Shown: piece by piece, positions 184 to 21,662 of the stretch
How positions within the stretch are numbered: the first letter of the stretch is position 1
Layout: each line of letters begins with the position of its first letter
IMG/VR virus record: IMGVR_UViG_3300025872_000139
Location: 1 to 37,763 of that record
Strand: one strand, 5' to 3'
DNA length: 37,763 nt
From: a virus
Position numbers and translations under genes: made by a program
Notes under the pieces: model-generated
Told to the model about the DNA's origin: nothing
Databases searched by the model: none
What the model saw: only the letters and a program-made list of their open reading frames with translations

Positions 184-2465
184 TGGAATTAACTCCTGCA
201 GAACGCGTAAAATTAAACGCTGCAATTCTTCGTTCAACTAAAACGGGTGAACCGCTTTCTTCTGATCTGCAAAGTTTATATAACCGAGCAGCAGAAATAA
301 ATCAGGCTCAACTTGCGCAACCTCAATATCCAACGCGTAATGTATCCGATTTAATTTGGGATAAAACAGTTGATACAAGTCAAGGTATTCGTTTTAACAA
401 ACCAGGTGGGGCCGTACAGATTGTTCCTCACTCTGGTCCGGCAAGTAGTCTTCCTGTTACGGATTGGGAAGAGCTGTATCCTAAAGTAGTTCCTGTTAAT
501 CCAAACGAAGCTGGTTTATTTTCTAGTAATTCAAATCAACCTTTTGGTAGAGAGTTTGATTTTACACAACCACCTGTAAATATTCGTGATACTGAATCAG
601 TACAAGAAAAAGCTAAACGTTTTCTTAATCAATATTTTGAGGGGCAAGATCCAGGGCCAGTAATTAATCCGGCAACAGGAAGGGCTTATGGTAATGAGCT
701 AAAACTACACGATGCAATGCATGACTTTGCCAACGTTGGAAATACGTTGCGTGGCGAGGAACTTATTACGATTGCAGAAAATGTTGGCGCTACACCGCTG
801 GCAGCTCAAAATATTGGCTTAAAAAATTTAACTCAACAAGCGCCGGTATTTACATCTGATCCTTCGCTTGCATATGAAGCAGGGATTGAAGATGCAAAGC
901 GAAATGCACGAATGGGCGGCCGTACTCTTGTGCAACAACGTGGTGCAGCACAAGGAAGTTCTTTGTTTAGGGACGCAAATAATGTTGCTTCTTTCTTGAG
1001 TCCTCCAATCAGTCAAGAAGAATTTAATACAATGGCCCAAAGAGGGCAAGAATTTTACGATCAGGTCCAGGCAAATTGGGACGCTTTTAAGAGGGGAGGC
1101 AGTGTTGAGTGGTCTGATAAAGATAACTGGCAAGGCAGAACAATACGCTCAGAGGCTGCTAACCAATTCATGAATAATGAATATGGGCCGCCACGGGTAA
1201 TTACACAACAAATTGCAGGTGGATACAACACTGGTGGGATTCCATATGGCAATCCTCTTTCGTTGATGAATGCTCCTTTAGTGCCTACAGTTGACACTAA
1301 TTTGTGGCAACAAGAACTCAATAAAGCTGCTGAAATCGCAGCCCCTGCATTAAAAGAAAAAATAACCCAAGAACAAATTACTTATAACTCTCCTGAGCAA
1401 ATTAAAGCAAGAGCATTAAGCGGTGAATGGGATGTTAAAAAGAATGCTTTGATAAAGCTAATGGGTGAAACAGACCCTGGTTATATAAATTTTGTTCGTC
1501 AAAATTATGCAGAACAGGGTTTAGATATTGACTCCCCTGAGTTCCAGCGAGATCGACGCGTTTATGAAGCATTAGCTAAAGCTAATCCTAAAAACTTCCA
1601 AATTTTAGAAGACACGTTGGGAGAGCGTCCCTCAACTCCCCAAAGACCTCCTGTAACAAGAGCAACAAATTCACTTCTTGGAAGCTGGACACCTCCTAGT
1701 GATCCTGACTTTTTTGAAGACGCCTTAACTTATGCGGATAATTCTATTAGATCTGCAATTGATAAAGCGCGTGGTGTAGGCATGGGAGGTTTTACGTCTG
1801 CCGCGCCAATGGATTTTAGAGAAGGCGGTAGAACGTATCTTAACCCCGCAAACTTAGGCGCAAATCCTCAAGGAACAATTCAACGTCCTCAGATGGATAG
1901 AGACACTGTGCGCGTTTTAGAAAGCGCTGGTGTTAATTCTTCTGATCTTTTACTTGATATTGCTGCTAAAGCAAAACAAGCAGAAGTATACAACAAAGCT
2001 CTACCAAAAATTTCTCAAGCTATAGGGACTGGTTTTAATACTACAACTGATTTAGCAGGTTCTGTTCCATTGTTTGACCCCGCCTTCAGGCAAGCTGTTG
2101 AAACCGGCAATCTTCGCAAAGCGGCTCAACAAGTTGCTACCGAATATGCAATTGGAACAGCGGCCGCTCCAGTAGTTGGAGCGGGTGCTGGACTTGCTCA
2201 ACGTTTAGCACCTGCAACAACTGCTGCTGTTCTTCCAGCAGTTGCTGGTGGTCTTCGTATTGCTAATCCTCTTGCTGTTGTTTCGCAACTAGGCGGTTCA
2301 ACTAAATTAAATAAGAAAGCAGACGAACAAGCAGCTAAATCACAATTGGCACGGGCAGAAGCTGCTCGTCGTCGGGGAAGTAAATGGAAATTCCCAACCC
2401 CATTTGGCACTTTACGTATTCCGGAGTTGGGTATCTCGGAAGCAGGTGGACTATTTTTCCGTTAA
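183..2465 (+). CDS. Large hypothetical phage protein, 760 aa
   Basis: An uninterrupted 760-residue frame starting at ATG 183, overlapping the previous stop by one base. The first 650 residues are polar, rich in Gln, Asn and Ala, with no motif I recognise; near residue 175-185 there is a His/Asp-rich stretch (HDAMHDFANVGNT). Residues 665-725 form a hydrophobic Ala/Gly/Val-rich segment that could be one or two membrane-inserting helices, followed by a basic patch (ARRRGSKWKFP). Size and this tail would fit an ejected virion protein, but that is inference only. The end overlaps the convergent HNH gene by four bases. Codon use is AT-rich, matching the left part of the window. Confidence 0.75.
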   Translation: MELTPAERVKLNAAILRSTKTGEPLSSDLQSLYNRAAEINQAQLAQPQYPTRNVSDLIWDKTVDTSQGIRFNKPGGAVQIVPHSGPASSLPVTDWEELYPKVVPVNPNEAGLFSSNSNQPFGREFDFTQPPVNIRDTESVQEKAKRFLNQYFEGQDPGPVINPATGRAYGNELKLHDAMHDFANVGNTLRGEELITIAENVGATPLAAQNIGLKNLTQQAPVFTSDPSLAYEAGIEDAKRNARMGGRTLVQQRGAAQGSSLFRDANNVASFLSPPISQEEFNTMAQRGQEFYDQVQANWDAFKRGGSVEWSDKDNWQGRTIRSEAANQFMNNEYGPPRVITQQIAGGYNTGGIPYGNPLSLMNAPLVPTVDTNLWQQELNKAAEIAAPALKEKITQEQITYNSPEQIKARALSGEWDVKKNALIKLMGETDPGYINFVRQNYAEQGLDIDSPEFQRDRRVYEALAKANPKNFQILEDTLGERPSTPQRPPVTRATNSLLGSWTPPSDPDFFEDALTYADNSIRSAIDKARGVGMGGFTSAAPMDFREGGRTYLNPANLGANPQGTIQRPQMDRDTVRVLESAGVNSSDLLLDIAAKAKQAEVYNKALPKISQAIGTGFNTTTDLAGSVPLFDPAFRQAVETGNLRKAAQQVATEYAIGTAAAPVVGAGAGLAQRLAPATTAAVLPAVAGGLRIANPLAVVSQLGGSTKLNKKADEQAAKSQLARAEAARRRGSKWKFPTPFGTLRIPELGISEAGGLFFR

Positions 2466-2716
2466 CTAATCCAATGCTCAAGCCTGTGGCAATTGCAGCA
2501 TAACGGAATACACTTGCTGATCTCTTCTTCTACTCGGCCCCAGCCGTAGCCATGGTTTACCATGTCTGATATATTGTTATCCTTGTCTCCAACATGGTGA
2601 AACTCTAAGACACGGTGATCATCCAACCCACACTTCTCGCATTGCAGAGTCTTCTTGTACTCCAGAAGCTTCTGTCGATTCTTGTTGATACGTTCCTTGG
2701 ATTGACTCCAGGGCAT
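2462..2716 (-). CDS. Small HNH endonuclease, 84 aa
   Basis: A free-standing HNH nuclease of the homing type. Visible parts are a zinc-knuckle pair C26-x2-C29, the catalytic histidine region LEFHH (H40/H41), and the closing C73/C74-x-C76-H77 with N75, giving a full H-N-H core. Such phage enzymes nick or cut DNA and often spread themselves between genomes. It runs tail-to-tail against the 760-residue gene and lies just downstream of tRNA-Pro and the structured RNA candidate on the same strand, so it may be cotranscribed with them. No intron or intein could be identified around it. Length is short but complete for the family. Confidence 0.85.
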   Translation of the reverse strand: MPWSQSKERINKNRQKLLEYKKTLQCEKCGLDDHRVLEFHHVGDKDNNISDMVNHGYGWGRVEEEISKCIPLCCNCHRLEHWIS

Positions 2717-2769
2717 TCATAACTTTATTGGTGTAATTAATATAACGCTTTTATTCAGATTTGTTATAT

Positions 2770-2840
2770 CGAGATGACAGGGATCGAACCTGTGACCCAC
2801 TGCTCCCAAAGCAGTTGCGCTACCGCTGCGCTACATCTCG
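2770..2840 (-). tRNA. tRNA-Pro (UGG)
   Basis: A 71-nt cloverleaf read on the minus strand. The acceptor stem is CGAGATG/CATCTCG (7 bp), the D stem GCGC/GCGC, the anticodon stem ACTGC/GCAGT with loop TTTGGGA, and the T arm ACAGG-TTCGATC-CCTGT. The anticodon is TGG (bases 2806-2808), which reads proline CCA and wobble codons. The 3' CCA is not encoded and must be added by the host. Phage tRNAs usually support late translation or replace host tRNAs that are cut in defence. Confidence 0.95.
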
Positions 2841-2842
2841 GT

Positions 2843-3239
2843 AATAGAGCGAGAGTATCCGCCTACGATAATCTACGATGCGGCCTAGGGGACTCTTCGT
2901 TTAATACGACGTTCCTTGTCGTACCCTTTTAAATAGGCGAGGAAAAAGCAGATGCACCTTTAAGCCTGATTTAAAATCAAGCGGCTTCATACTTTCTCCC
3001 CATTTCCGGTTATCGCTGGAACACTACCTGCACACCGGCAAACTCTGGTAGTGAACGGTCCGTTAAGCTTGCCAAATGGGTCGAGGGCTCAACCGTGGAC
3101 CAAACGGGCGGGGGTGATCAATCCCCCGGCCTGGAAACCCAGGACTTAGTACGCAGACCAGAGAACTGGCTGCACCCTACCGGCAGAGCAGTAGGGGTGG
3201 TGATGGATTAGGTGTGCAAGCAGGGACCTAATCTCTATC
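2843..3239 (-). ncRNA. Candidate large structured non-coding RNA upstream of tRNA-Pro
   Basis: About 400 bases with no credible reading frame but a dense set of helices. The ends pair over a long range: 2843-2849 with 3233-3239, 7 bp including one G-U that is only a pair on the minus strand. Inside are hairpins 3207-3213/3226-3232 (7 bp perfect), 3175-3180/3191-3196, 3153-3161/3166-3173 (8 bp with one bulged A), 3130-3134/3139-3143, 3110-3114/3123-3127 (G5/C5), 3057-3061/3097-3101, 3022-3028/3047-3053 (7 bp) and 2905-2910/2918-2923. It begins just after the terminator at 3255-3282, has a possible -10 box at 3246-3251, and reads into tRNA-Pro. Large ornate phage RNAs such as GOLLD and ROOL often sit beside tRNAs, but I cannot assign this one to a family. 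Confidence 0.5.
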
Positions 3240-3245
3240 AAGAAT

Positions 3246-3251
3246 ATCATA
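3246..3251 (-). promoter_or_regulatory. Possible -10 box for the RNA/tRNA unit
   Basis: On the minus strand this reads TATGAT, one base from the bacterial sigma-70 consensus. It lies between the terminator at 3255-3282 and the first helix of the RNA candidate, and would place transcription start near 3239. No good -35 box is visible, so the call is weak. Confidence 0.3.
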
Positions 3252-3254
3252 AAC

Positions 3255-3282
3255 AAAAAATCCCGGTGTACTAAGCCGGGAT
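3255..3282 (-). terminator. Rho-independent terminator of the minus-strand sugar/small-gene operon
   Basis: Read on the minus strand, ATCCCGG (3282-3276) pairs with CCGGGAT (3266-3260) around a nine-base loop and is followed by six T residues. It lies about 115 bases downstream of the DUF6321-like gene and separates that operon from the structured RNA/tRNA unit. Confidence 0.85.
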
Positions 3283-3396
3283 CAAAGCTTCCTTACCGCC
3301 CTTGCAGCCTTTGGGGCTAGCCTTGAGCACTACGTTGTACGTGGAGGGACGTTTCGACTATTAGTCCCAGAGCGGAATTGCTCTGCTGTCAGAATA

Positions 3397-3570
3397 TCAG
3401 TATTTTTTACGGTTTGACTTCTTTGCGGTCTTAGCGGAATCCTTAAATGCTTTGGCCGTAGGCGCACCTTTTTCGCCAGGCTTGCGCATCTTCTCGCCAC
3501 TACCTTTTGCAATGCGCTCACGCTTGGCATGGATGTTGGCGTATAAACCAGACTTACTCTTTTCCGCCAT
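3397..3570 (-). CDS. DUF6321-like small basic protein, 57 aa
   Basis: Starts MAEKSKSGLYANIHAKRERI and continues with GSGEKMRKPGEKGAPTAKAF, ending KKSNRKKY. This pattern (GLYANIHAKRERI, GSGEKMRKPG, KGAPT) matches a small conserved family common in cyanophages and other aquatic phages, annotated DUF6321 as I remember it. It is strongly basic (about a third Lys/Arg), suggesting nucleic-acid binding, but no function is established to my knowledge. It overlaps the upstream 57-residue frame by 17 bases and is the last clear gene before the terminator. Confidence 0.8.
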   Translation of the reverse strand: MAEKSKSGLYANIHAKRERIAKGSGEKMRKPGEKGAPTAKAFKDSAKTAKKSNRKKY

Positions 3571-4870: not shown

Positions 4871-6048
4871 TTGTCCATCACCTTAGAAAGTTTTTTGATA
4901 TCGGCTTCTTTAATAAAATGATTATTGCCGATGTAGAACGAATGGGTGTGCATCCGCTCGCTATTAGGCAAATCAATTAAAGAGTTGTAGTCCTCCATAA
5001 AGGGCTGACGTAGGAGGTTGCCCACCAGGAATGGACGGGTTTCAATGCCAATTAACTGGAAAAATTTCTTCAGTTCAGTTGCAATCTTTGAATCTTTGCA
5101 ATGGAATGGCAGTGTCATGGCGCTGTTTCCATTGGCCTTGGGGAGGGTATCAAACCAGGGGCGGTCAATCATTTCCTCTCGGAACAACGCATAGTTTTTG
5201 CTGCGCTGTTCATTCCAGCTGTCAAGCTTTTTCAGTTGGGTGCGCCCCAGGACTGCTCCGGTCTCTACGTTGCGGAAGTTGTACCCCTTGGTGGGAAACA
5301 AGAATGTAGGATCAACGTCCGGGTATTTCTCTTGGATGTCTGCGCGATAAGTAGGGAGCATCTCACGCGACAAACCGTGAGAACGTTTGGCGCGCAAGAG
5401 GTTATACAGCTTTTTATCTTGGACACAAATCATCCCACCTTCTATGGTGGTCATGTGGTGTCCAAAGTAAAAAGAGAAAGTTGAACCAATGCCGGTATTG
5501 CCAACTTTTACATTGGTTTTGGCATCACGGGCACCATGGGATTCGCAGCAGTCCTCAATGATTGCAACGTGAGGCCACAACTCTTTAATCCTCTCCATGT
5601 CATTGGAGATGCCAAGAACATGCGTTAAATAAATAACGTCTGGTTGGAGTCCTTTTTGAAAAAGCTGAAGAGCAGACTCGGGAGTAGGACTATAAGTATC
5701 GTAATCAATGTCATAAAAATATACATTATGGTTTTGTTGGCAGAATGTTGAAATATTTGTAGCCCAATTAATGGCTGGGGCAAAAATGGTTAGTTGTTTC
5801 TTGTCGGGAAAATAGTATTCACGTACCGCATCAAGCAGTAAGAAGTTGGCAACGGAACCGTTAGCTACATACAGGGAATACGGTGCACCCTGCCATTCAC
5901 TCCATTCGTTTTCAAACTGACGGCACTCGGGACCGTTAGTAAAGCGGTCAGAAGTCAAAACAAATTTTGTCAGCGCTAGCCGCTCTTCCCAACCGATTGT
6001 GTTCTTTTGAAGGGGCCAATCAAACACTGAATAAGGCGTCATAACCAA
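4858..6048 (-). CDS. DegT/DnrJ-fold PLP enzyme, probable ColD-type GDP-4-keto-6-deoxymannose 3-dehydratase
   Basis: A 396-residue fold-type-I PLP enzyme of the sugar aminotransferase family. IIEDCCESHGA holds the cofactor-anchoring Asp166, and SFSFYFGHHMTTIEGG is the active-site loop. In true aminotransferases a Lys forms the Schiff base at the residue that is His197 here. A His at this point is the hallmark of the 3-dehydratases ColD (GDP-colitose pathway) and E1/RfbH (CDP-sugars), which remove the C3 hydroxyl. The divergent neighbour is GDP-mannose 4,6-dehydratase, which makes the ColD substrate, so GDP-4-keto-3,6-dideoxymannose is the likely product. The final ColC-type epimerase/reductase is not in the window. 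First gene of the minus-strand operon. Confidence 0.85.
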   Translation of the reverse strand: MVMTPYSVFDWPLQKNTIGWEERLALTKFVLTSDRFTNGPECRQFENEWSEWQGAPYSLYVANGSVANFLLLDAVREYYFPDKKQLTIFAPAINWATNISTFCQQNHNVYFYDIDYDTYSPTPESALQLFQKGLQPDVIYLTHVLGISNDMERIKELWPHVAIIEDCCESHGARDAKTNVKVGNTGIGSTFSFYFGHHMTTIEGGMICVQDKKLYNLLRAKRSHGLSREMLPTYRADIQEKYPDVDPTFLFPTKGYNFRNVETGAVLGRTQLKKLDSWNEQRSKNYALFREEMIDRPWFDTLPKANGNSAMTLPFHCKDSKIATELKKFFQLIGIETRPFLVGNLLRQPFMEDYNSLIDLPNSERMHTHSFYIGNNHFIKEADIKKLSKVMDKCGY

Positions 6049-9538: not shown

Positions 9539-12159
9539 CCAATATCAACCAACAAGCACTCAAGCCTGGCGAAATTAAGCTCAACTACATTCCCATTGAT
9601 TGGCCCCTCACTCCACTGGGTCCAAACAAAGATCCATACATCGCAGGTTGGCAAAATAAACCCTATAGCCCCCAGGAGATCGAGAGTGAAGTGCTTGCAG
9701 GGCGTTGTAAAGCTGTAGGTCTGCTCGGTGGTCCTGTCTACAACCATCCCTATGGTTTGGTTTGGGTTGATGTTGACGGTCTCACCGTCTACCAACTTAT
9801 CGAGGAACTTGCTGAACTCCCCTTTTCTGAAGCACTGCCTCCAACACTGACCATTCTCAGCGGTAAAGAGGGGCGTGAGCGGAAGCTATACCGTCTATCT
9901 CGGGAGCAGCACAAGCACTTTGTCCGCAACAAATACACCTGGCACGCGGAAGGAGCAAAAGAAAAACTAGAGATTCTCTGGAAACGGCACCAAGGTGTGC
10001 TAATGGGTCTGCACCCGGAGACAGAAGGCTACTTCACCGCTCTAGATCAAGGGTTTGAATGGATCCAGGGATTGCCTGAATTCCCGGATTGGTTGCTGAA
10101 TGCCATTGTTCAGAAAAATGTCAAGCACGGTGTTCCAGCAAAAGAAACTACTCGCATCGTTGGTCCATCCTTTGCAATCAACGCAGAGATTGATTTAGAA
10201 CGCGACATGCAACTGGCCCTGGAGGCCATGTGGGGCATGCCGCCAGAAGCAACAGATGACTACGACATCTGGATCACAGTCGGCCAATCGCTCCATTCAC
10301 TGGACGAAAGCCTACTCGATCAATGGGATCAATGGTCTCAACAAAGCGATAAATATCGGGACGGTGAGTGTCAACGGCGGTGGCGTTCCTTCTCAAAAGG
10401 CGGTGGCCGTGGCGTCGGTTCTCTTATTCACGTTGCTAAAGAAAACGGATGGAAGCCATCGGAAAACCATAAGGCAATGAACGTTGATGATGGCGTACTT
10501 GATCACGTATCCAAACTATTAAACGAACTGGAAGAAGATTTAGGTATGAAACAATCCAACATTAATGTATTAGACGCAGCTCCAAAAACGCGTTGGACTG
10601 CAACTGCTCAGAGCGGCAAGAATAAAAAGAAAGATGAAAAACCTCGTAATCCTTCCTACGACGTAATCGCTGACATCCTGCTGCAGGACTACCAGGGTAA
10701 CCTGCGTTACAGCCAGTCGCATGGCGCTTTCTTCATGTATGAATACCAGCGGAAGGGACTGTGGTCACAGCTGTCGGAATACGAAGTAAAGGGCGACATT
10801 AAAGGCAGATTAGAAGCCATCAAAAAAGGGCTGCTTCACAGTGGATATTCCATGAAGCTGATCTCCGATGTTATGGAACAACTGCGAATTTCCACCATCT
10901 TTGATGACTGGTATGAAGGTAACGATTTCTTGCTATTCACCAACGGAATCCTAAAGGTTGAGACGCGGGAGCTGCTTCCGTTTGACCGGGAGATGCACAT
11001 CACGCAACAACTGCCTTATGAATACGATCCTTACGCAACTTGTGAGCCGATCATTAAGTGGCTGAAGTCCACACAAAATGACAGCTGGGGTCGGGTCCAG
11101 GTGTTGCGAGCATGGCTGCGGGCAGTGCTGATGAGTAACTCCAACATCCAAAAGTTTGTTGAGATTGTGGGTCCAGGTAAGTCTGGTAAATCAACCTACA
11201 GCAACCTTGCTCATGCACTGGTTGGTGATGACAACGCCATGATTTCTTCATTGGAACATCTGGAAAAGAACCGTTTTGAAACCGCCAACCTTTATAAGAA
11301 AAAGCTTCTGCTCTTCAATGATGTAGAACGTTATGGCGGCTCAGTCTCAGTCTTGAAAGCAATCACCGGTCGTGACCTGATTCGTAACGAGCGCAAGTTC
11401 CAAGCGGGTAGCCAGAAGCCATTTAAGTTCAATGGTTTGGTTATGATCACGGCCAACGAACCAATCCAGACCACCGACCCAACCTCAGGTCTTGCCCGTC
11501 GTCGTCTCACCATTCCATTCGATCAACCATTCACCGGTAGTTCTGCTGAGCAACGCACCCTTATTGATATGGATGATCGCGGTCATCCCTTTGGTGAATT
11601 TGCTGCTTTGCTCCCAGGTCTGGTGAACTGGGTTCTGGATATGCCAGAGGCTGAGATGCGTGAATACCTCATGGAGACTAATGAAAAAGTTGACTTCTTT
11701 GCCAAGCATCACAAGGAGCAAATCCTTAAGTCCAACCAAATCCTTGATTGGATGCAGCATTGTGTTGTGTTTGATCCAGGTATTGCTACTCCTGTGGGTC
11801 TTGCAAAACATGCGCCCGGCGGTGTCTCCAACCTCTACATCAACTGGGATAAGTGGTTGTATGCCAGCTACTGCGAATTCTCACGTGGTTCAAACAGCAA
11901 CATCCTTGGTCGCAGCCGGTTTGAATCCCTCCTGATGGACGTATGTGTACATCAACTCAAGTTGAATGTTTATCAATTCAAAAACAGTCGCGGTATGCGT
12001 GTCGTCAACATTGCACTTCGGGCCTCTGGTCCCAAATACGAGCAGTATCCGTCCCTTGTGGAAGTTGGTTTAAACAAAGAAGAATGGCGCACTTTCTACG
12101 GTGATGTAATTGACAAAACACCTAATGCGACAATGGAAGAGGTAGCAGAAGAACTGTGA
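9535..12159 (+). CDS. Primase-polymerase / SF3 helicase replication protein, 874 aa
   Basis: A two-activity replication protein. Residues 1-200 resemble an archaeo-eukaryotic primase-polymerase domain: VWVDVDG supplies D79/D81 and LEILWKRHQGVLMG a conserved basic loop. Residues 220-305 match the PriCT-2 primase C-terminal domain (DDYDIWITVGQSLH...GGRGVGSL). Residues 380-660 are a D5/SF3-type helicase: Walker A GPGKSGKST (546-554), Walker B LLLFND (591-596) and motif C ITANEP with sensor N641, then an Arg-rich finger LARRR. It would unwind the origin and prime, possibly also copy, phage DNA. It is coupled to the preceding gene by ATGA and to speD by GTGA. Confidence 0.9.
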   Translation: MTNINQQALKPGEIKLNYIPIDWPLTPLGPNKDPYIAGWQNKPYSPQEIESEVLAGRCKAVGLLGGPVYNHPYGLVWVDVDGLTVYQLIEELAELPFSEALPPTLTILSGKEGRERKLYRLSREQHKHFVRNKYTWHAEGAKEKLEILWKRHQGVLMGLHPETEGYFTALDQGFEWIQGLPEFPDWLLNAIVQKNVKHGVPAKETTRIVGPSFAINAEIDLERDMQLALEAMWGMPPEATDDYDIWITVGQSLHSLDESLLDQWDQWSQQSDKYRDGECQRRWRSFSKGGGRGVGSLIHVAKENGWKPSENHKAMNVDDGVLDHVSKLLNELEEDLGMKQSNINVLDAAPKTRWTATAQSGKNKKKDEKPRNPSYDVIADILLQDYQGNLRYSQSHGAFFMYEYQRKGLWSQLSEYEVKGDIKGRLEAIKKGLLHSGYSMKLISDVMEQLRISTIFDDWYEGNDFLLFTNGILKVETRELLPFDREMHITQQLPYEYDPYATCEPIIKWLKSTQNDSWGRVQVLRAWLRAVLMSNSNIQKFVEIVGPGKSGKSTYSNLAHALVGDDNAMISSLEHLEKNRFETANLYKKKLLLFNDVERYGGSVSVLKAITGRDLIRNERKFQAGSQKPFKFNGLVMITANEPIQTTDPTSGLARRRLTIPFDQPFTGSSAEQRTLIDMDDRGHPFGEFAALLPGLVNWVLDMPEAEMREYLMETNEKVDFFAKHHKEQILKSNQILDWMQHCVVFDPGIATPVGLAKHAPGGVSNLYINWDKWLYASYCEFSRGSNSNILGRSRFESLLMDVCVHQLKLNVYQFKNSRGMRVVNIALRASGPKYEQYPSLVEVGLNKEEWRTFYGDVIDKTPNATMEEVAEEL

Positions 12160-19670: not shown

Positions 19671-21662
19671 TTAGATGCCTGCCGCAGTTAGACGACCTTC
19701 CAGATCTTCAATCTTCTGGAGGGCTTCCTGCAGCGCAGCCGTCAGCAGGGGCACCAGCTTGGACTGGTCGATGCCTTGGTAGACGGGGTTGCCGTCGTCA
19801 TCTACGGCATCCTTTTCGCCGGTTACGCACTCAGGTACAACGGCTTGTGCTTCGTGAGCAAGGAAGCCATCAACCGTGATGTCAGGATCAGCGATGAAGT
19901 TGAAGCGGCGAACCTGAAGCTGGTTAAGACGATCAGCAGCGCCAGTTAGCGGAACAACGTTTTCCTTGAGGCGGTAGTCGGATGAGGTGTTGTAGGCGGT
20001 TGCTGTTGTAGTAACGGAGATTGTGCCGACTCGGACTGCACCAGGTTGGTTCCTAAAGATGTCGATAATCGTGCCATCACTACCGCGACCAATTTTCAGT
20101 GCTGTAGCTGAAGCATTGTAGTAAGAAAGAGCACTGCTATTTGCGCCTGGACCTGCAGCAAGAACGCCACTAGCCGAATCGCCAATAGGATCTAATGTTC
20201 CACCGCCAATCAGTACGGCGCCATCCTGCGTAATCCTCATCCGCTCCGTTGGAAAAGAAGCGCCATCCGCAGTAGTGGAGAACACTAACCTCGATGGAAA
20301 ATCATTACTTCCGGTGGAGCCGTCAACTACTGCTTGAATCGTTGCATAAATGTCTTGGCTGCTATCGGAGAACCTAATTTGCCCAAGGACATCACCCGTT
20401 GTGATTGTTCCAGTAGCTTTGCCAGAACGCAACAGAATTGACCCGCCATTTGTTGTGCCGCTTGAATCGGCTTGCACCTGCAGGAAATCACCGCGAGAAG
20501 TCGAAGACGTGCCAACTAAAAAACGACCCGATGTATCAATCCGCGCTTTCTCACTTGCCTGTATTTGGAACGAAACTGCGTGATTGGAGCGCGTTCCAAT
20601 AAAACAGGTGCTGGATGCTGAGTACGGATTAATTTCTCCAGTTACAGTCCCGTCAGAAACGGAAAGCATTGCCTGTGGGCTAGTAGTGCCAATCCCTACG
20701 TTGCCGGAGGTATCTATAGTAAACACACTGCGAGTAAGTGCGGACGAATAAAAACCAAAATCTTTAGTGCCGTTGCCTTGTGAATCTTGTAAAATTAGCC
20801 AGTCATCATTTAAGGAAATTGCGGCTCGTCTAGATGTGGCATGCGCTGTAGCAAGAATCCTTAATGCAACGGGAAATTGAGCCGTCTCTCCGCCTATATC
20901 AAGTTTGTAACCAGGGTTACTAGTCCCCACACCTACCCGGTTATTCGTTGCATCAACGTAGAGCGTATTGCTGTCGATATTGATGTTGCCGCTGGAATCA
21001 ATCAGCAGACGCTGCGTACCATTAGTGGCGAGGGCTAGTTGATCTGCGCCGGGGGAGTAGATGCCGGTGTTTGGATCTCCAGTAAACGTCAGCGACGGCG
21101 CGCCAGCCGTACCAGTCGGAACACTAAAACGCTCGCTGCTTGTCCACGCATCAGTGGCGTCGATCCAGTTAATCGTCTTATCGGTGGTGCCTTTCAGCGT
21201 GATGCCGCCACCGTCTGCCGTTGTATCGGTCGGTGTTGTCACCTGACCGATGATCACATTCTTATCCTCGACAATCAGATTCTGAGTATCGATTGTCGTT
21301 GTGGTGCCGTTAACCGTTAAATTGCCTTGGATCGTGACAGCCGCATCAAACGTGGCCGCACCCGTCACGTCCAGCGTGCCAGGGATATCGACGTTGCTTG
21401 TCCATTCCACATCTGTGCCATTGGCTGCGGTCTGCAGCAGCTGCCGGGCACTGCCATCAGCCAACCGCGATACCGGGATCTCAGCTCCTAAACCGCTGAT
21501 ATAGGCGAGCGATGTCCACGCGGTGCTGCCATCACCCACCTTCCAATATCCAGTGTCTGATTCAATCCCGATCTCACCAGCCAGCAGCGTTGGATTTTCA
21601 GCTGTCCAGTTGGCGGCACTGTCGCGACGTTGCTTTTGCAGGGCTGAAAGCGTAATGCTCAT
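19671..21662 (-). CDS. Tail fibre with Mtd-like N-terminus and S74 chaperone C-terminus, 663 aa
   Basis: Residues 15-55 (NWTAENPTLLAGEIGIESDT, then YWKVGDGSTAWTSLAY) are the short Mtd-N/hyaluronidase-type domain used by fibres to join the virion. The middle is long beta-repeat sequence with fibre motifs such as NRVGVGTSNPGYKLDI and GNVGIGTTSPQAML. Residues 560-663 form a Peptidase S74 intramolecular chaperone: SSDYRLKENV has the self-cleavage Ser and the Asp/Lys of the motif, and the end is a coiled coil (LQEALQKIEDLEGRL). The chaperone trimerises the fibre and then cuts itself off. This is the likely main receptor-binding protein. Its start overlaps the preceding tail gene as ATGA. Confidence 0.9.
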   Translation of the reverse strand: MSITLSALQKQRRDSAANWTAENPTLLAGEIGIESDTGYWKVGDGSTAWTSLAYISGLGAEIPVSRLADGSARQLLQTAANGTDVEWTSNVDIPGTLDVTGAATFDAAVTIQGNLTVNGTTTTIDTQNLIVEDKNVIIGQVTTPTDTTADGGGITLKGTTDKTINWIDATDAWTSSERFSVPTGTAGAPSLTFTGDPNTGIYSPGADQLALATNGTQRLLIDSSGNINIDSNTLYVDATNNRVGVGTSNPGYKLDIGGETAQFPVALRILATAHATSRRAAISLNDDWLILQDSQGNGTKDFGFYSSALTRSVFTIDTSGNVGIGTTSPQAMLSVSDGTVTGEINPYSASSTCFIGTRSNHAVSFQIQASEKARIDTSGRFLVGTSSTSRGDFLQVQADSSGTTNGGSILLRSGKATGTITTGDVLGQIRFSDSSQDIYATIQAVVDGSTGSNDFPSRLVFSTTADGASFPTERMRITQDGAVLIGGGTLDPIGDSASGVLAAGPGANSSALSYYNASATALKIGRGSDGTIIDIFRNQPGAVRVGTISVTTTATAYNTSSDYRLKENVVPLTGAADRLNQLQVRRFNFIADPDITVDGFLAHEAQAVVPECVTGEKDAVDDDGNPVYQGIDQSKLVPLLTAALQEALQKIEDLEGRLTAAGI

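Follow-up and report, generated by a model that had tools for sequence, protein, structure and literature searches.

Small structured RNAs arranged in tandem within a tRNA array of a 37.8-kb virus

Structured RNAs of phages are already known from several settings. Phage T4 makes the stable RNAs C and D, which are small, of unknown function and derived from the phage tRNA operon, and GOLLD, ROOL and HEARO are large RNAs of phages or mobile elements, the first two being known near tRNAs. For cyanophages, manA (RF01745) and wcaG (RF01761) have been reported as 5′ UTR elements with a likely cis-regulatory role (PMC2864571), and the paper on the cyanophage S-CREM1 lists abiF (RF03085), wcaG, manA and glnA only (PMC9964418). 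In C. difficile, the abiF RNA (RCd22) neutralises the AbiF toxin by direct binding (PMC12373285). Small RNAs of phages can also disarm host defence, as seen for pseudo-ToxI of phage PhiTE, an RNA mimic against ToxIN (PMC3475682), and for the Racr anti-CRISPR RNAs, which are phage RNA mimics against CRISPR-Cas (PMC10651486), while phage tRNAs act against retrons (PMC11555353). To the extent checked, a reshuffled set of RNA cassettes between tRNAs is undescribed: the literature consulted, mainly open papers, contains no description of the modules reported below, with a few Weinberg 2010 motifs that lack Rfam entries, Ocean-VI and GUCCY-hairpin among them (PMC2864571), lying outside the comparison.

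The tRNA arrays of phages are commonly taken to assist translation; the inter-tRNA space examined here carries several undescribed RNA families. The window, that is, the whole stretch analysed, comprises the 37,763 nt of IMG/VR record IMGVR_UViG_3300025872_000139. Its positions 2843-3239 contain, instead of one large RNA, a tandem run of small folded RNAs, at least six in number, that belongs to a tRNA array and has the order A-B-C-C2-D-E-tRNA-Pro. The features of the region are:

3255 to 3290, minus strand: GC-rich hairpin and T run, seen in the sequence, just upstream of module A.
3202 to 3239, minus strand: module A; at least 142 pattern matches, P1 100% paired, 52.6 bits with model R2 in the window.
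3151 to 3201, minus strand: module B; 18 contigs, fold z -3.50, first stem 97.5% paired.
3108 to 3147, minus strand: module C; 16 sequences, 98.1% paired, 6 of 10 pairs with two-sided changes.
3057 to 3108, minus strand: module C2, abutting C; 10 sequences, 97.8% paired.
2939 to 3053, minus strand: module D; 6 contigs, covariation read from five sequences.
2846 to 2927, minus strand: module E; about 120 loci, 99.3% paired, 106.5 bits with model R1 in the window.
2769 to 2840, minus strand: tRNA-Pro (UGG) by ARAGORN, 69.4 bits with the Rfam tRNA model; 3′ neighbour of E in the same array.

The first-pass annotation had described a gene-free, structured and unassigned RNA beside tRNA-Pro, and this description holds: the program-made list of reading frames contains none of at least 60 amino acids within 2843-3245, the tRNA occupies 2840-2769 of the minus strand, the local helices covary strongly, and an Rfam check found no family other than tRNA. 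The minus strand of the 403 nt folds at -147.8 kcal/mol, compared with -126.2 +/- 6.3 kcal/mol for 100 dinucleotide shuffles (z -3.43), all of which are less stable. The plus strand is nearly equal in stability and again surpasses all 100 dinucleotide shuffles (z -3.07). Little can be read from folding energy by itself: module E, which has the best-sampled covariation, reaches a z of only -0.65. That the RNA strand is the minus strand, as had been proposed, is instead indicated by G-U pairs within the covarying helices of E and A, the outer pair of A being G-U in 16 of 31 sequences, and by the orientation of the array, because the modules share their strand with the tRNA genes; the G-U pair of the end-joining helix, which the proposal had cited, does not provide this support.

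Module E begins with P0 (GGG/CYC) and a 6-bp P1 with the loop [AC]AGGAA[AC], continues through a UUAAA linker into a 7-bp P2 with a bulged A (YR, bulged A, AGRRU), and then through CCCNU, P3 and P2′ to GCCC; P3 has 4 bp and the loop ANCGUAGA..ANCGUAG, which can hold optional inserted subdomains. By blastn, the 3′ 82 nt of the stretch are present in two cultured cyanophages, S-CREM1 (92.7%) and DSL-LC03, where E lies between tRNAs and is unannotated in both (positions 10046-10127 of S-CREM1), and pattern scans of IMG/VR returned 16 and 109 stretches. Among 30 aligned sequences, 99.3% of the helix cells are paired, 12 of 20 pairs are changed on both sides, and covariation amounts to 0.435, compared with 0.178 when shuffled and at most 0.142 with slid partners. 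The pairing of P0 with GGG is kept in all 30, with one G-U in the window. The search patterns fixed the letters of the loop and of the linker and, in part, one strand of P2, so that the invariance of loop and linker is partly built in; P1, P3 and every 3′ partner were left free, so that P1 and P3 covary independently of the patterns. A pattern for the P3 loop only was too loose; among 100 loci from pattern searches that were tested with the covariance model, it upheld just two (L173 and L136). According to the same type of model E is present as a single copy in 11 of 12 records, S-RIM50 having none. The P3 loop takes two alternative inserts, GCGAAAC..GCUUCAGCAUAAG..GUCGC and UUCACCGUUAAG..GUGGUAACAC, each with conserved letters of its own; such subdomains were seen in L021, L041, L054, L066, L070 and L104, and in L027, L037, L048, L089 and L113.

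Module A consists of GAUAGAG, one strand of the 7-bp P1, CCCUG, a variable hairpin, CAC, P1′ and CCAUC, and measures 38 nt in the window and up to ~90 nt in other loci. The pattern matches comprise at least 71 distinct sequences. Its P1 is fully paired in 31 sequences, with two-sided changes at 7 of 7 pairs and a covariation of 0.773 as against 0.234 when shuffled, and this covariation is not built in because none of the six main stem positions was fixed by the pattern. Within A, GATAGAG is nearly invariant whether or not E is nearby. The module also occurs in 8 cultured cyanophage records, and in S-CREM1 (155720-155774) it lies one base before a lone tRNA-Ala.

The remaining modules are sampled more thinly. 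Module B is formed by two hairpins, the first with the conserved ACUGCUCUGYCGGU and the second of variable length, ending in CUGGUYYGCGU; two pairs of the first stem are changed on both sides, a weaker case. Module C is built as AAGU, a hairpin CCUGG/CCAGG, CC, a hairpin GGGGG/CCCCC and GC, and both hairpins covary. Module C2 is a pseudoknot in which the loop GGUCC of a hairpin CCCG/CGG pairs with a downstream GGACC, with an additional inner helix, and among the 10 sequences each of these three helices shows two-sided change at one or more pairs. In module D a stem CACUACC/GGUAGUG encloses a loop pairing CCGGU/ACCGG and is followed by a long hairpin; in the five sequences the stem, which was read by eye, varies from locus to locus on both sides in concert, and one compensatory change is seen in the loop pairing. 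In cultured phages D has no match, and B-C-C2 gave nothing beyond a chance-level match.

Outside the window the modules are found alone and in changed orders. A and E, the two best-sampled modules, recur in more than 100 other phage sequences, mostly between tRNA genes. The 5′ 310 nt of the stretch match other loci piecemeal only. The orders seen elsewhere are tRNA-E-tRNA, A-tRNA, A-E, C-E, B-A-E, A-C-C2, A-C2 and D-tRNA (module/tRNA listing, INDEPENDENCE). As a rule C and C2 are neighbours (7 of 13-14 each), and each is also found without the other, C2 for example in L285, L365 and L367; C adjoins E in L052 and L065 and occurs without B in L113 and L136, and D adjoins a manA RNA in L281 and L370. 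Where the fetched stretch of a distinct locus includes a tRNA, the tRNA closest to E shares the strand of E in 85 of 86 loci and the one closest to A shares the strand of A in 99 of 99; it lies within 60 nt in 72 and 73 loci, respectively, compared with 17% and 21% for random positions in the same loci. Often the modules are only 0-10 nt away from tRNA ends.

Presence of the modules is polymorphic within one phage species. In S-RIM8 isolate RW_03_0807_WH8101 (KX349286) a 328-nt cassette with A, a tRNA-like element and another recurring element separates tRNA-Thr from tRNA-Ala, whereas in isolate RW_06_0613 (KX349287) the gap between these tRNAs is 3 nt, the flanks of 127 and 245 bp being 100% identical. 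The short form of the junction is found in 15 sibling records among the matches listed. At the same junction S-RIM32 carries A together with both of these further elements, in a different order, and S-RIM50 a 117-nt piece only.

The carriers differ in kind. S-CREM1 and DSL-LC03 belong to the Kyanoviridae (T4-like), while the window encodes a terminase, major head protein, tail tube protein, minor tail protein, endolysin, Prim-Pol and sugar genes, and none of its proteins tested gave a sign of a T4-like myovirus. By blastn, A and E match in Synechococcus phages only. In the genomes of 84,980 bacterial and archaeal species the strict E pattern had 16 matches, 15 of them unsupported by the covariance model, and the one true match lies in a 24-tRNA array, with one copy each of E and C, on a contig that binning placed in the Microbacteriaceae and that probably belongs to a phage of uncertain host. 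Given this contig and the contrast between the window virus and the Kyanoviridae, the modules appear to move between unrelated phages. Plasmids had no match for the A or E patterns; together with the single true genome match, this speaks against E being a plain copy, in sequence, of some common bacterial antitoxin RNA. A tail protein with a major tropism determinant N-terminal domain and an S74 chaperone domain is encoded at 19674-21662 on the minus strand of the window.

With Rfam 15 at curated cut-offs, tRNA alone matches in the window, and at E-values up to 10 nothing relevant was found in 2720-3420; the models for GOLLD, ROOL, HEARO, group I and II introns and tmRNA had no match at gathering thresholds or at E-values up to 10, and copies of A and E in other loci likewise had no Rfam match. 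The pistol ribozyme (RF02679), tried as a candidate, was rejected, with no match at module E in five records nor in the window region at E-values up to 10. Known families do occur beside the modules in other arrays, where abiF, manA and wcaG were found at curated cut-offs, abiF as a separate element in L003, L279, L362, L364 and L370 and nowhere in the window. Like the modules, the abiF RNA is a small folded RNA carried by cyanophage tRNA arrays of this kind (S-CREM1, PMC9964418), but its sequence and fold differ, and C. difficile abiF has a known toxin partner whereas A-E have no known one. Similarly, manA and wcaG are cyanophage structured RNAs, here located beside tRNAs and modules, yet A-E lie between tRNAs and match neither model. 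By their description, the T4 RNAs C and D resemble the modules in their tRNA-operon origin. In L370, whose contig holds a tRNA/manA/D array, positions 5410-5480 give a partial match to the Rfam permuted tmRNA (60.9 bits, cut-off 47).

Recurrence, covariation and reshuffling together establish the anatomy, and we hold with high confidence that the six modules are small structured RNA cassettes in a phage tRNA operon. They would be transcribed on the minus strand together with tRNA-Pro, and the enzymes that trim tRNA ends (RNase P, 3′ trimming enzymes) would release them, as their frequent placement next to tRNA ends suggests. Once freed, they would act in trans during infection, the folded RNAs binding and blunting RNA-binding defence or toxin proteins of the host. 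As an explanation of the whole, six cassettes that act in trans in anti-defence or host takeover is one we judge to have a slightly better than even chance of being right. The role itself we propose tentatively: an accessory anti-defence (decoy) or host-takeover function leads among the roles considered because the modules are accessory and gained or lost within a species, E is single-copy, abiF keeps them company, and RNA mimics and tRNAs provide precedents. The analogy is drawn from the abiF RNA, which would be expected to blunt a toxin and is carried in arrays of this kind. Pseudo-ToxI and Racr, which are phage small RNAs of the proposed kind, resemble the host RNA that they mimic, unlike A and E, for which no such host RNA was found; the searches of genomes (strict E pattern) and plasmids (A and E) yielded no bacterial counterpart, and the searches made here no host target or cognate protein. 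It is also possible, with similar reserve, that aquatic phages have in common a large stock of small structured RNA genes, reshuffled as cassettes between their tRNAs and gained or lost within a species, as an RNA-based anti-defence arsenal comparable to protein anti-defence islands, with A and E among the commonest members and abiF alone having a known type of target. The families covary strongly, are common to unrelated phages (T4-like Kyanoviridae and the 37.8-kb virus) and are polymorphic within a species, and the existence of cultured phages, namely S-CREM1, DSL-LC03 and S-RIM8 with and without the cassette, makes the function of extra RNAs in phage tRNA clusters directly testable.

Instead of blunting defence, the modules could be regulatory small RNAs or protein sponges that reprogramme host or phage expression, for example via the AGGA loop of E, which was considered as a putative CsrA-type sponge. 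This seems unlikely: the near-invariant loop [AC]AGGAA[AC], whose letters the search patterns partly fixed, does sit on a covarying stem, but it is one of several invariant patches in E, and pairing with a CCC run may hide the AGGA.

Placement on the tRNA strand, often abutting tRNA ends, would equally suit cis-acting spacers, that is, processing or stability elements of a long tRNA precursor (RNase entry sites or shields) without function after cleavage, and the conserved loops could just as well serve precursor processing in cis. Yet most tRNA-tRNA gaps lack the modules sought (726 tRNA-tRNA versus 87 E-tRNA neighbour pairs in the loci examined), S-RIM8 isolates manage without the cassette at the same junction, and the conservation exceeds the expected need of an RNase site, which leaves cis-acting spacers a decidedly poor prospect.

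The hairpin of E, its UUAAAY linker and the possible pairing of loop and C run resemble the layout of the pistol ribozyme, and the core nucleotides of E are nearly invariant, so that a small self-cleaving ribozyme cutting the tRNA precursor was weighed; with no match to the pistol model in the records searched and a junction dinucleotide that varies (AU, AC, GU, AG), such a ribozyme is highly improbable.

The first-pass annotation had favoured a single large, ornate RNA closed by a 7-bp helix that joins its two ends. This helix is present as letters, but of the 10 distinct loci in which A precedes E the window alone can form it, and its 3′ strand overlaps the closing strand of P0 of E, so that the two pairings compete and the structural case for a single RNA fails. 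Looking for compensatory changes in homologues, as had been advised, thus upheld the local helices of E, A, B, C and C2 and spoke against the end helix. One large RNA, be it a new class or a relative of GOLLD or ROOL, is close to untenable in spite of the low folding energy of the whole stretch and the tRNA neighbour, as its parts occur alone and reordered elsewhere, its end helix can form in 1 of 10 loci, no Rfam model matches, and GOLLD, ROOL and HEARO are single RNAs of several hundred nt compared with modules of 38-115 nt. The hairpin and T run at 3255-3290 are there, as had been noted, and probably terminate the preceding minus-strand gene, although a simple terminator scan did not flag them and no promoter was found there. 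This terminator-like stretch, AGCUUUGAUCCCGGCUUAGUACACCGGGAUUUUUUG (window 3255-3290, minus strand), is common to more than 20 fetched phage loci.

Further elements were observed in the arrays. The tRNA-like element (CUGGUAGUCUAUUGGUAAGGAC ... GGUUCGAUUCCUAGACAGAUG) has D-like and T-like arms without an ordinary anticodon arm, lies between tRNAs in 30 fetched loci (e.g. L003 2926-2997 and L373 ~1348-1420), and some of its copies are labelled tRNA-His or tRNA-Leu by ARAGORN; it may be a tRNA mimic. The recurring element UUGCCGUGGUUCA..AUCCAGUGGGGCG..AGUCUCACAAUCACAYGGCA is found in DSL-LC03, S-RIM8 and S-RIM32 (L002 2918-3000, L373 ~1428-1499 and L375 ~1629-1706), and its L002 copy had no Rfam match. 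An 84-aa HNH endonuclease reading frame follows tRNA-Pro (window 2465-2716, minus strand), and a GIY-YIG gene (L003) and an HNH-like reading frame (L090) are located in or near other arrays; such genes are a possible means of cassette mobility. Finally, a short hairpin UUCCCSCUCUC..GAUSGGG often stands directly 5′ of A, B or E (27 loci, comprising L011, L021, L060, L069, L073, L078, L100 and 20 others).
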